Shown here: positions 169 through 50,406 of the stretch, one piece after another
How the letters are laid out: each line of letters opens with the position of its first letter
Position numbering within the stretch: position 1 is the stretch's first letter
Source: Tepidisphaeraceae bacterium
GTDB lineage: Bacteria > Planctomycetota > Phycisphaerae > Tepidisphaerales > Tepidisphaeraceae
Direction of reading: 5' to 3'
Assembly: GCA_035998445.1 (NCBI GenBank)
Contig: DASYHQ010000064.1
Coordinates: forward strand, 1 to 50,406
DNA: 50,406 bases
Program-made: the position numbers and the translations under genes
The notes under the pieces: model-generated
The model's database searches: none
Told to the model about the DNA's origin: nothing
Seen by the model: only the letters and a program-made list of their open reading frames with translations

Positions 169-247
169 GAGACAGGAAGAGACACAGAAGAGAGGCAGAG
201 GAATACGGGGGGGGAGAGACAGGCAGGAATGCCTGTCCTACAGAAGA
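169..247. repeat. Family A REP-like hairpin (GTAG type)
   Basis: Bases 218-237 form an 8-bp stem with a 4-nt loop (GACAGGCA-GGAA-TGCCTGTC), followed by CTAC. Read on the minus strand this is a GTAG-headed hairpin like E. coli REPs. A G-rich tract precedes it. The same unit flanks the RAYT gene at 27.6-28.2 kb. Confidence 0.8.
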
Positions 248-5685: not shown

Positions 5686-5780
5686 TTCTGTAGGACAGGC
5701 ATTCCTGCCTGTCTCTCCCCCTGTTCTTTCTCCCCCCGTATTCTCTCTTCCGTGGCACAGACATTCTTGTCTGTGTCTTC
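5686..5780. repeat. Two family A hairpins, GTAG and GTGG subtypes
   Basis: At 5694-5713 the GTAG-headed hairpin GACAGGCA-TTCC-TGCCTGTC appears, then a C-rich tract. At 5757-5776 a second hairpin CACAGACA-TTCT-TGTCTGTG is headed by GTGG. The base changes between the two stems are paired, so both stems are preserved. Confidence 0.85.
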
Positions 5781-18997: not shown

Positions 18998-19085
18998 GGG
19001 GAGACACAGGCAAGAATGCCTGTGCCACAGCAGAGAAGCAGACGGGGGGAGAGACAGGCAGGAATGCCTGTCCTACAGAAGACGG
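18998..19085. repeat. Two family A hairpins in tandem
   Basis: Hairpins at 19005-19024 (CACAGGCA-AGAA-TGCCTGTG, followed by CCAC) and 19053-19072 (GACAGGCA-GGAA-TGCCTGTC, followed by CTAC) lie in the same orientation, each preceded by a G-rich tract. The changed first stem base and the changed tetranucleotide (GTGG versus GTAG when read on the other strand) go together. Confidence 0.85.
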
Positions 19086-25896: not shown

Positions 25897-27591
25897 TTAT
25901 CGCCGCCAGCGTTTCGGCAGGAACTGCTTCATCACGTCCACCCCCAGCACGAAGCACGCCCCGAAGTAGACCGCGGCGCCGACGCTCATCAGCAGCAGCA
26001 ACTGGGTCGCCCAGGTGAGGCGCGTTTCATCAGTCGGGTAGATCGGCGACAGCTTGATCGCGTAGCAGGCCAGCCCCATCAGCAAGGTCGCCAGCAGCAT
26101 CTTCATCACCGGCACCGCCAACGACCGTAACCCCAGCCCGCCGAGCCGGCGGTCGAGCAGCCAGAGCATGATGGCGGCCTGGATCGCGAAGCTGACCAGC
26201 GTGCCGACCGCCATGGCGCTTTCGCCCAAAGGCGTCCAGAGCAGCGGGATCTCGATCACCAGGTTCAGCAAGATGTTGACGACCGACATCACCAACGGTG
26301 TGACCGTGTCGTGGATCGCGTAGTACGCCCGGTTGACGATCTGCAGCAACGAGAACGCCCAGATCGCCCCGGCATACCAGCGCGTAGATTGCGCGATCAG
26401 AAGCGCATCATGCTCGCTGATCTGCCCGTGTTGAAACAGCAGCCGTGCGGTGGGCTCGGCGACGAGGATCAGGCCAAGGCTGGCGGGCAGGCCTTCCCAG
26501 ATCGTGGCTTCCACCCCTTGCCGCAACGTGCCGCGGAAGGCGTCGCGGTCCTTATCGAGGGCGTCGGCGCTCAGGCCGGGGAAGATCGCGGTCGCCAGCG
26601 CGATCGCGAAGACGCCGAGCGGAAACTGGTAGAGGAACTGCGCCAGCTCTAAACGCCGCGGTGCGCCTAATTCGAGCGGCAGGCGGATCGATTGGCCGAG
26701 GATCGTCACATGCGTGACGAGCTGATGCGCCTCGTCGAGCGTCTGCATGAGGAAGTACGAGATGCCGCGATCGAGCAGCACCGACAGCTGCAGCACACCG
26801 GCTCCCATCGCCACCGGCACCGATAGCAATAGCATCTTGCGCACCAGTGGCGTGCGGATCTTGGCGCGCAGATCAAACGTGAACCCGGCGGCCTTCAGTC
26901 CCGGCAGCAGTACCGCCACCTGCAGCACGCCAGCCACCAGCACGAAGCCCGAGAGCCAATAGGCCAGGATCGCCTGCAGGCGGATCGTCTCCAGGGTATC
27001 GTCGGCGGCCTTCAGGTGCAGGACCTTGGCGCCGATGAACAGCACGCCGATATGGCAAAGATTCAGGATGATCGGCGCCGCCGCGGGCGCGCCGAACCGG
27101 CGGTGGACCTGCAGGATGCCCGCAAGGAACGCGCCGCCGCAGATCAGCAGCACGTAGGGCAGCATGATCGCGACGAAGTGCAGCGTCATCACGCGGTCGG
27201 GCAGCAGGTCGTCGTTGAACCGCAGGATGCCGAAGATGACGAGTTCACCGACGATCGTGATCGCCAGCAGGATGACCGCCAGCAAGTTCACACTGGCGGC
27301 CGCGAAGGCGTTGGCGTTTTCCTTAGTGTCGTGCTTGTTCGCCTGCGCGTACAGCGGGATGAACGCCGCCGACAGCGCCCCTTCACCGAACAGCTTTCGG
27401 AACAGGTTCGGAATGGTGAATGCGACGGAAAACGCCGTGGCGACGAGCCCGGTGCCCAGGTAATGCCCGCTGACCATTTCGCGCGCCAGCCCGACGAACC
27501 GGCTGACGAGCGTGAGCCCGCCGACGATCTTCGCGTACGCAAGGAACGAGCGGGCCGGCGGGGGTTGGGTGGGGGGTGCGGTTGGGGCCAT
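25897..27591 (-). CDS. murJ: Lipid II flippase MurJ (MviN family)
   Basis: Integral membrane protein of 564 aa with about 14 helices, moving lipid-linked peptidoglycan precursors across the inner membrane. N-terminal GLTLVSRFVGLAREMVSGHY and AFTIPNLFRKLFGEGALSAA are highly typical of MurJ, including the conserved Arg and the cavity-facing polar residues. Two hydrophobic repeats follow. The C-terminus FLPKRWRR is basic. Start ATG 27591 (MAPTAPPTQP). MurJ points to a cell wall, which Phycisphaerae have. Single gene. The 40 bases upstream are followed by a family A hairpin. Confidence 0.93.
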   Translation of the reverse strand: MAPTAPPTQPPPARSFLAYAKIVGGLTLVSRFVGLAREMVSGHYLGTGLVATAFSVAFTIPNLFRKLFGEGALSAAFIPLYAQANKHDTKENANAFAAASVNLLAVILLAITIVGELVIFGILRFNDDLLPDRVMTLHFVAIMLPYVLLICGGAFLAGILQVHRRFGAPAAAPIILNLCHIGVLFIGAKVLHLKAADDTLETIRLQAILAYWLSGFVLVAGVLQVAVLLPGLKAAGFTFDLRAKIRTPLVRKMLLLSVPVAMGAGVLQLSVLLDRGISYFLMQTLDEAHQLVTHVTILGQSIRLPLELGAPRRLELAQFLYQFPLGVFAIALATAIFPGLSADALDKDRDAFRGTLRQGVEATIWEGLPASLGLILVAEPTARLLFQHGQISEHDALLIAQSTRWYAGAIWAFSLLQIVNRAYYAIHDTVTPLVMSVVNILLNLVIEIPLLWTPLGESAMAVGTLVSFAIQAAIMLWLLDRRLGGLGLRSLAVPVMKMLLATLLMGLACYAIKLSPIYPTDETRLTWATQLLLLMSVGAAVYFGACFVLGVDVMKQFLPKRWRR

Positions 27592-27630: not shown

Positions 27631-28234
27631 TTCTTCTGTAGGACAGGCATTCCTGCCTGTCTCTCCCCCCGTCTTCCTCTCCCCCCGTCTTCCTCTCCCC
27701 CCGTATTCGCCTCACACCTTCCGATCCAGAATAAACAACTCGGGATACATCCAAGGATCGTCCACGAGCCCCTTCGTCATCGCGTTGTGCAATACGTACT
27801 GCAACTTCTCTTCGAACTCTCGCCGGTCGCGAATAACGCGATCGAACGTCTCGTCCTGCCACACCTGACCGGCTTGCTTTCGATGTTCGTTGACGAGCTT
27901 GGCCGAGACGCCCTTCGTGCCCTTGCCGATGTCCGACAGACTGTAGTCGTTCATCGGCCGTACGAGCATGTGAACGTGATCGGGCATGACGACGGCAGCA
28001 AATAGCCGGTAGAAGCGACCGTGGCCACGCAGAACGTGGTCGTAAACGAGGTGTCGTTCCCTGGCGGATAGACGGCCACCAGCCAAGCGGAAGGTGAGGA
28101 AGTAAGTGACGTCTCCGATGTCATAATGTGGGAGGTGGCGGCGGTGAACCGTTCCCTTTCCTGGGGGAAGAGAAGGCAATGCGGGGGGAGAGGCGGGGGG
28201 AGAGACAGGCAGGAATGCCTGTCCTACAGAAGAG
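27631..28234. mobile_element. RAYT module flanked by inverted family A REPs
   Basis: A module of about 600 bp. At 27632-27670 and 28195-28233 are near-perfect inverted copies: GTAG then the hairpin GACAGGCA-TTCC-TGCCTGTC (27642-27661) with a C-rich tract, and the mirror image at 28204-28223 ending CTAC. Between them lies a REP-associated tyrosine transposase frame (27712 to about 28179). Between hairpin and gene end are three CCCCCCGTCTTCCT-type units (27666-27705). This arrangement is a RAYT with its own REPs, sometimes called a REPtron. It lies at the 3' end of thiE. Confidence 0.82.
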
Positions 28235-29277
28235 GGGGATAAACGGCGCGTCATGTCACGCGCCGCAGCCCTCACGTCGTCGGCGCCCACCACCGCGGCG
28301 GTAACGGCGACCGCCTTTACGCCCGTCGCCAGAACTTCGTCGACGTTCTCCAGCGTAATCCCCGCGATCGCGATGGCGAAGATTTGGATCTCCGCGGCGA
28401 CGGCGCGGGCGAAGTCCAGGCCGGGCAGGAAGTCGCGGGGCTTCGTGCTGCTGGGGAAAACGGGGCCCACGCCGATGTAGTCCGCCCCGGCTTCTTCCGC
28501 GGCGCGGGCCTGCTCGATCGTGTGCGTGCTCACGCCGACAATCTTGCCGCGGCCCAGCAGTTGACGCACCGCGGCGATGGGCAGGTCGCCTTGGCCGACG
28601 TGGACGCCGTCGGCATCAGATAGGGCGGCAATGTCCGGGCGGTCGTTGATGATGCTGATCACGCCGTGCTCGCGGCACAGTGCCACGAAGTCCTTTGCCC
28701 GGCGGAGCAGTTCGCCCGATTCCATGTCTTTCTCGCGCAACTGCAGGCAATCGGCACCCCCCTCGATGGCTTGGCGGGCGGCGTCCAGCCAGTGGGTCTT
28801 GCACTGCGATTCGGTGATCAGCACGTACAGCCTCACCTCTGCGAAACCGCAGGCGGCGGGGCGAAGGGTCTCGGCAATCCGTTGCTCGATCGCGTAGAAG
28901 CGGTAACGGATTTGCTCGACTTGCTGGGACACATCCGCATCGATCGTCTTCAGGTATTCCTCGATCGCGCGCAGCGCTTCACCCATGCGTTTCCCCGCGG
29001 CCGTCACCACGTGGGCCAGGTCGTCGCGCCTTGCTTCTGCGGGCGTGCCGATCATCGTGCCGACGTCGCCGGGCGTATCGCGATGGGCGATGGCGGCGGC
29101 GACGTGGGGCGCAGTGGCGGCCGTTAAATCGTGCCGCAGGGTCTTCAGCGATTCGCTCAGGCCGGCGTCATCGCGAATGAAGCGGGCGTAGTCCTCCAGC
29201 ACCCGCAGCGCCTCGCGGGCGCGGTTGAAGTTGGCGTCGAGCAAACGCAATACGGAACTGTTGATGAATTGACCCAC
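27712..29277 (-). CDS. thiE: ThiDN-ThiE thiamine phosphate synthase whose frame continues into a RAYT
   Basis: Joined frame of 521 aa. Residues 1-145 are the ThiDN-like helical domain (LDANFNRAREALRVLEDYAR). The ThiE barrel follows with LQLREKDMESGELL, INDRPDIAALSDADGVHVGQ and GADYIGVGPVFPS, which condenses HMP-PP and THZ-P to thiamine phosphate. From ~343 the frame crosses a family A repeat (SVGQAFLPVSPP) and enters a REP-associated tyrosine transposase: VVMPDHVHMLV holds the HUH metal site and LQYVLHNAMTKGL the likely nucleophilic Tyr. The transposase could have its own start, a TTG at 28179, giving 155 aa. I choose GTG 29277 for ThiE, since the frame upstream lies in a repeat. Whether a fusion protein is made is unclear; the stop of thiE is probably lost. 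Confidence 0.8.
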   Translation of the reverse strand: MGQFINSSVLRLLDANFNRAREALRVLEDYARFIRDDAGLSESLKTLRHDLTAATAPHVAAAIAHRDTPGDVGTMIGTPAEARRDDLAHVVTAAGKRMGEALRAIEEYLKTIDADVSQQVEQIRYRFYAIEQRIAETLRPAACGFAEVRLYVLITESQCKTHWLDAARQAIEGGADCLQLREKDMESGELLRRAKDFVALCREHGVISIINDRPDIAALSDADGVHVGQGDLPIAAVRQLLGRGKIVGVSTHTIEQARAAEEAGADYIGVGPVFPSSTKPRDFLPGLDFARAVAAEIQIFAIAIAGITLENVDEVLATGVKAVAVTAAVVGADDVRAAARDMTRRLSPSSVGQAFLPVSPPASPPALPSLPPGKGTVHRRHLPHYDIGDVTYFLTFRLAGGRLSARERHLVYDHVLRGHGRFYRLFAAVVMPDHVHMLVRPMNDYSLSDIGKGTKGVSAKLVNEHRKQAGQVWQDETFDRVIRDRREFEEKLQYVLHNAMTKGLVDDPWMYPELFILDRKV

Positions 29278-29305
29278 AGCCCGCCGATTATAGGGCCAGA
29301 GGAAG

Positions 29306-29402
29306 GGATTGCCGATTTGCGATTTGCGATTGCCGATTGAAAGACAAGTGTGAGTAGGCCGCACCTCCAATCGCTAATCGGCAATCGCAAATCGCAAATT
29401 TT
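29306..29402. repeat. Family K inverted repeat
   Basis: GATTGCCGATTTGCGATTTG at the left and its complement, CAATCGCTAATCGGCAATCG followed by CAAATCGC, at the right. This short hairpin separates thiE from the divergent small gene at 29413. Confidence 0.8.
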
Positions 29403-50035: not shown

Positions 50036-50406
50036 AGTGGCCGCGGTCTCAACCTTCTAACGCTCTCTCGAGAACAATGAGCTGCGCGGCGTTCCATGGA
50101 GGCACAGGCCAAACTCTTGATTTCCTTGGCGCTCCTGGCCGCCTTGGAGGTCTTGGCGCGCATCACCGCGGCGCAGTCGGCTCTTCGCTATCGCAGGCGG
50201 GTCTTTAAAGCACGGCACCCCATCGGATGTCTCGCACGGCAGAGGAACGTCCGATGCAAGATGTGATACGAATCGTGATTAAACCGCGCGCTCGTCATCC
50301 TGAGAGGGTGTTTACTAAGTCGGCTGGGTCTGCTCCGGCCGTGGCATGGGCGTCTCGCCCATGCTGTCGGATTGGAACGAAGGCCATTATTTGGGCATGT
50401 TGCGCC

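Follow-up and report, generated by a model that had tools for sequence, protein, structure and literature searches.

RAYT domains in frame with ThiD2-ThiE and with other housekeeping proteins, mostly in Planctomycetota

The thiD2-thiE locus, its hairpins, and its RAYT

The window, by which we mean the whole stretch of DNA analyzed (50,406 nucleotides), is one entire contig of a 5.84-Mb Tepidisphaeraceae genome in 64 contigs (genome G000). On its minus strand, a single open frame of 552 residues as listed (27712..29370) comprises ThiD2, ThiE, a REP-encoded peptide, and a RAYT. In this frame, Pfam detects ThiD2 at residues 42-163, TMP-TENI at 181-360, and Y1_Tnp at 456-509, and the NCBIfam equivalog PRK02615 matches residues 37-378 above its cut-off, covering the ThiD2-ThiE part. 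That part occupies 28240..29253 (minus strand), with the ThiE profile matched completely (1-180 of 180), and the true start of the frame probably lies shortly upstream of the ThiD2 domain (29253). The end of ThiE (...DMTRRL) is followed by the hairpin, read as VGQAFLPV, then by a proline-rich linker and the RAYT (RRHLPHY...). A preliminary description of this DNA had treated the RAYT as an enclosed gene of its own and missed the fusion to thiE, which is apparent from the one frame carrying Pfam domains of both. The downstream neighbor (25897..27591, minus strand) was identified by reading its sequence as a lipid II flippase MurJ-like gene. Upstream of the thiD2-thiE coding part, we also noted a perfect 24-base inverted repeat (29315-29338 and 29376-29399, within 29308-29399).

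Two copies of one hairpin bracket the RAYT. The copy within the frame (28195..28233, minus strand) is partly translated as VGQAFLPVSPP and contains the exact family A 24-mer GTAGGACAGGCATTCCTGCCTGTC at 28204-28227. The second copy lies in inverted orientation 3' of the RAYT stop codon (27632..27671, plus strand; exact 24-mer at 27638-27661). Including TCTTCT before and TCTCCCCCCG after the 24-mer, the copies match at all 40 bases. The near-perfect inverted 39-bp GTAG hairpins of the preliminary description are therefore real, but they do not enclose the frame, which runs through the right-hand hairpin into thiE as far as 29370. As DNA, GTAGGACAGGCATTCCTGCCTGTC folds into an 8-bp stem with a TTCC loop (z = -5.2), and it has five exact matches in the window versus none expected by chance. 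CT stands immediately 5' of GTAG and again immediately 3' of the stem. E. coli TnpA-REP cuts at CT beside the REP (PMC8266576), and the CT positions here are in keeping with that, a fitting detail rather than a test. Tandem 16-base units, CCCGTCTTCCTCTCCC, adjoin the hairpin at 27668..27715 (plus strand).

The RAYT domain, of the TnpA-REP HUH/Y1 type, spans 27715..28161 on the minus strand. Among solved structures, TnpA-REP (4er8, E = 1.5e-12) is its best relative by sequence profile, and the domain has both the HUH motif DHVHM (27967-27981) and the tyrosine motif YVLHN (27784-27798), the latter the start of the YVLHNAMTKGL string noted previously. The identification of the frame as a RAYT with these two motifs, both on the minus strand, is thus borne out. 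The two His columns and the Tyr column are invariant in alignments A1 and A3. The Pfam Y1_Tnp score was 31.8 (cut-off, 23), and the NF047646 score was 72.5 (cut-off, 80). The domain sits on a long branch of the RAYT tree and does not have the usual NPVK after the tyrosine. A genome search found one copy, plus one distant relative with 38% identity. An IS200/IS605 insertion sequence was considered and rejected because the score against that family (NF033573, 25.6) falls far under the cut-off of 55 and the element is single copy. As in a REPtron, inverted copies of a GTAG hairpin abundant in the genome (187 copies) flank the RAYT, so the earlier view of a REPtron-like module stands; the RAYT is not a separate gene, unless the linker TTG described below serves as its start.

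That linker, ASPPALPSLPPGKGTV (28147..28194, minus strand), is predicted to be disordered along with the REP peptide. It contains one TTG (28177-28179), no ATG, and no GTG, and no Shine-Dalgarno-like stretch was found ahead of the TTG. Judged from its sequence, the RAYT appears to lack a well-supported start codon of its own. In a structure predicted from 61 sequences, pLDDT was mostly 87 to 98 in the RAYT and below 50 over residues 347-379, with the linker at 28 to 44; the top 50 Foldseek matches to this model were all ThiE structures. No intein or Hint Pfam family was detected in the window frame or in the scanned embedded frames described below. These features suggest that the RAYT would be produced at the C-terminal end of ThiD2-ThiE, as a domain of one unspliced chain.

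Hairpin families and the ThiE fusion in relatives

Allowing up to 2 mismatches, GTAGGACAGGCATTCCTGCCTGTC has 187 copies in the G000 genome, and a reversed control has none. The check proposed earlier, a search for the hairpin elsewhere in the genome, was thus positive. Within the window, dispersed family A copies lie at 218..241 (minus strand), 5690..5713 (plus strand), and 19053..19076 (minus strand). These correspond to three of the five dispersed copies listed previously (5690 had been given as 5694); the remaining two are hairpins of a second family, GTGGCACAGGCATTCTTGCCTGTG, located at 5752 (listed as 5757) and at 19005. At 5690/5752 and at 19005/19053, family A stands beside a hairpin of the GTGGCACAG family, resembling half of a nested bracket.

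Family A hairpins form 22 other close inverted pairs in G000. None of the seven such brackets that were read contained a RAYT, and the genome-wide RAYT search recovered only the close copy in the window. The brackets read contained nested hairpins and other cargo, and no Rfam family matched their contents. Among 100 family A places listed for G000, all 23 pairs of neighbors less than 1 kb apart were in inverted order with GTAG outward, spanning 128 to 742 bp (for example, L003 1501-2126, L007, L017, L019, and L027). When five brackets were compared, family A was outermost, followed by GTGGCACAGG and then GTGGGACGGAC, around a common core 73 to 80% identical.

ThiD2-ThiE with a C-terminal in-frame RAYT occurs in 4 of the 61 genomes searched (G000, G003, G013, and G022), which represent four genera of the same family; the remaining ThiE genes among the 61 genomes have normal ends. 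Each fusion genome has one ThiE locus. The REP linkers differ among the four, and the frame is open in all of them. In G013, inverted hairpins (930215+ and 930885-) bracket the RAYT at 930287-930718. Comparison of the locus between sister genomes, as had been proposed, revealed an occupied and an empty site: G022 carries the RAYT and its sister G001 (support, 100/99) does not. Their DNA is 88% identical on either side of the site, the downstream stretch being 105 bases, and the extra DNA in G022 amounts to several hundred bases, starting at the hairpin start. A single origin of the four fusions was tried and rejected: the ThiE tree does not accept them as a clade (AU P value tiny), most of its deep branches being weak, so that gain and loss are indistinguishable.

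Hairpins matching GTRGGRCAGRCATTCYTGYCTGYC were found in 4 of 4 ThiE-RAYT genomes versus 3 of 37 other relatives (Fisher P = 0.0003). An exception is G001, whose 89%-complete assembly contains 34 such hairpins but yielded no RAYT of the window type; loss of the RAYT or an assembly gap may account for this. The association between hairpin and RAYT across relatives is therefore strong but not perfect. The preliminary description had proposed the RAYT as source or driver of family A and had named relatives with the repeats and no RAYT as the case against it. G001 touches on this case. The distribution fits a RAYT that drives these hairpins and does not prove it.

RAYTs embedded in other host proteins

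The second RAYT of G000, on contig C58, was passed over in the preliminary description. A DinG/YoaA helicase hosts it in frame, with helicase parts on either side, and GTGGCATGGGCG hairpins flank it in inverted order. The insertion site, after the SATL motif, corresponds to the interval between residues 467 and 486 of E. coli DinG (6fwr) and is occupied by a RAYT in seven genera of the family. Hairpins of the type around DinG-RAYT, GTGGCATGGGCGTCTCGCCCATGC, also occur in the window as inverted pairs exactly 111 bp apart (7964/8075, 48613/48724, and 49895/50006) and as a single copy at 50341. Across the family, 13 of 21 RAYTs detected with the A1 profile are embedded: 4 in ThiE, 7 in DinG, and 2 in DUF1156 proteins.

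Embedding recurs well beyond this family. At class level the search took in 150 genomes and at phylum level about 390; a named genome collection was also searched. With the frames read, we collected 54 non-identical embedded RAYTs, mostly from Planctomycetota. Hosts were named mostly by Pfam, with LeuRS and a few others recognized by separate search or reading. The Pfam-named hosts include ValRS, IleRS, AlaRS, PurH, GcvP, RecG, DinG-like, DUF1156, Eco57I, MmeI, Type ISP, EcoEI R, and FabA-like proteins, and many of the embedded RAYTs have host domains on both sides. Outside Planctomycetota, cases were found in Thermodesulfobacteriota, including the isolate Desulfoferrobacter suflitae DRH4 (DUF1156), in other Deltaproteobacteria bins, and in Ignavibacteria/Kapaibacteria, where the RAYT is embedded in RecG. 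Within the host frame, the palindromic repeat reads as VGQAFLPV in the window and as VGQTFLSA-like peptides in relatives. The RAYTs that sit in frame in this way are of the LPHW group, whose stand-alone members occur in many phyla. On a quick RAYT tree with many weak branches, parsimony requires at least 19 switches between the stand-alone and embedded states, and 10 changes of the stand-alone label are unavoidable given the starred branches. Three further architectures were noted. In addition to its in-frame RAYT, a DUF1156 frame (L167 2834-6310) contains a GIY-YIG nuclease domain (E = 4.1e-15). An IleRS (L078 3861-8804) has more than 10 tandem GSIGVPPV peptides ahead of the RAYT. The ValRS of G000 itself (C61:125740-129081; 1137 residues) has an in-frame insert at a break in the model at positions 568-598, with no RAYT match.

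Comparison groups did not show this pattern. Among 101 IS200-type transposases listed from the same class sample, the longest frame had 386 residues. In another RAYT group, frames of the 52 best matches ranged from 178 to 274 residues except for two, of 454 and 561 residues, whose upstream parts were low complexity and contained no host by reading. The HUH and tyrosine motifs are intact in all 54 embedded RAYTs (two regex misses were checked by eye). An ATG within 40 codons upstream was present in 16 of 54 embedded versus 30 of 41 stand-alone RAYTs (P = 3e-5). In seven unsaturated pairs, dN/dS of the RAYT part was about 0.09 to 0.20, indicating purifying selection (L147/L160, L157/L169, L202/L169, L241/L249, L078/L162, L143/L144, and L184/L198, the host not being identified in the last two). 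Because dS is at or near saturation in the ThiE pairs, selection on the window RAYT is judged solely from its intact frame and motifs.

Several hosts are single copy. This is the case for ValRS in ten genomes, in which the insert always lies at TIGR00422 positions 365-377, directly ahead of residue 379 of Thermus ValRS (1gax); these cells must therefore live on the chimeric enzyme. The LeuRS and IleRS cases also seem to be single copy. An AlphaFold model of a ValRS-RAYT protein was poor overall (mean pLDDT, 54.7; 11 rows), with a confident RAYT segment. Different RAYT lineages occupy the ValRS site, and the L153 RAYT groups with a LeuRS RAYT (96*). In the ValRS pair L147/L160, the hosts are about 95% identical, but the N-terminal two-thirds of the RAYT are 55 to 73% identical and RAYT dS is 1.48. 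In L241/L249, similarity between the RAYTs greatly exceeds that between the distal host parts, and high identity reaches beyond the insert. Host and RAYT distances were not correlated (ValRS rho, 0.11; DinG rho, 0.07), which does not support long vertical descent. Together with the lineage changes at the ValRS site, this suggests that certain sites are preferred, with modules being replaced or inserted anew there.

Explanations for in-frame RAYTs and comparison with known systems

We consider it likely that REP-RAYT modules endure by riding as passengers, in frame and unspliced, at the ends of or inside housekeeping proteins, and that ThiE-RAYT is one such case. In the window, a module would have inserted at the extreme end of thiE and left one reading frame that passes from ThiE across the hairpin and on into the RAYT, with a disordered, hairpin-encoded linker joining the RAYT to ThiD2-ThiE. 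Insertion into permissive loops and ends may be frequent, and in needed genes only in-frame, stop-free inserts would survive. The host gene would provide promoter, ribosome site, and start codon, making expression free. When the insert lies within a protein that the cell needs, most deletions in it, and any frameshift or stop, would also break the host, which would shield the transposase gene from decay. The linked domain probably acts in trans, cutting and rejoining single-stranded GTAG hairpins elsewhere and so maintaining the repeat family. We infer this shielding, as well as DNA cleavage and the spread of family A by the window protein. The ThiE insert is terminal and its loss would not break ThiE, which makes the shielding argument weaker here than for ValRS or DinG; such cheap loss is in line with the patchy presence of the fusion. 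More tentatively, these modules may constitute a class of mobile elements lodged unspliced and in frame in single-copy essential proteins and swapped at fixed positions as they invade homologous genes, an intein ecology without splicing.

The simplest alternative is an ordinary REPtron downstream of thiE, in which the RAYT starts at the linker TTG or by reinitiation and the open frame arose by chance, since the hairpin is stop-free in most frames. In its favor are the TTG at 28177-28179 and the occurrence of stand-alone members of this RAYT group across many phyla. This TTG has no Shine-Dalgarno-like stretch, however, all four ThiE fusions are open despite different linkers, and inserts with host domains on both sides would be left unexplained; we regard this account as quite improbable. 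That the fusions are decaying remnants or assembly errors might be suspected from the divergence of the window RAYT and from most of the genomes being metagenome bins. Intact frames, retained motifs, low dN/dS, a ThiE fusion in the single-contig genome G013, and a DUF1156 case in the isolate DRH4 make this very hard to credit.

Two further accounts accept the chimeras as real. The host may have recruited the RAYT for an enzyme-linked task or DNA upkeep. Such domestication would agree with purifying selection on retained catalytic residues, with a DinG site common to seven genera, and with the housekeeping-gene-like behavior reported for RAYTs (Quentin 2018, PMC6006769). It seems doubtful given hosts as functionally unrelated as tRNA synthetases, PurH, GcvP, ThiE, and restriction enzymes, a patchy presence even between sisters, and the differing RAYT lineages at one ValRS site. 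The same change of lineages at a single site would be expected if RAYT modules invaded empty alleles as intein or intron endonucleases do, and the divergent RAYTs within the near-identical hosts of L147/L160 and the excess RAYT similarity in L241/L249 point the same way. In the latter pair, though, identity extends past the insert, so that ordinary transfer or recombination suffices, and no empty allele beside a filled one was seen moving; we therefore think homing unlikely. Passenger modules riding in frame with their hosts remain our preferred explanation. In-frame riding in indispensable genes would give, for the LPHW group, a direct and testable answer to the question of how RAYTs survive for long periods without visible self-spread. 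In-frame palindromic repeats would also gain a plausible enzyme, and many transposase and tRNA synthetase annotations discarded by pipelines as "too long" may be real chimeras.

REPtrons and in-frame REPs are known. What appears to be new is the transposase itself lying in frame within housekeeping proteins, which we did not find described: no earlier report was found in the open-access literature, with some key papers lying outside it. Long TnpA-Y1 proteins have been noticed and discarded without analysis (Quentin 2018, PMC6006769), and those set aside there may or may not be embedded RAYTs. IS200/IS605 TnpA shares the HUH/Y1 fold and chemistry, but the window protein falls far short of that family's cut-off and IS200-type transposases in our control were never in long frames. 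Inteins with homing endonucleases likewise place a selfish enzyme at conserved sites of conserved proteins; here, in contrast, the scanned frames hold no Hint family and the insert appears to remain in the mature protein. In-frame REPs and Rickettsia palindromic elements are known in repair genes and tRNA synthetases, where they are tolerated as extra peptide (Di Nocera 2013, PMC3733652). They resemble the present case as palindromic repeats in frame in protein genes, but they mostly add 20 to 30 residues and no enzyme, whereas here a transposase is carried. REPtrons (E. coli TnpA-REP and relatives) are alike in having an HUH/Y1 enzyme, inverted GTAG-headed hairpins, and one RAYT with many dispersed hairpins. 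In known REPtrons, tnpA-REP is a gene by itself; the transposase described here shares its frame with a housekeeping protein, and translation of that frame takes in the flanking REP.
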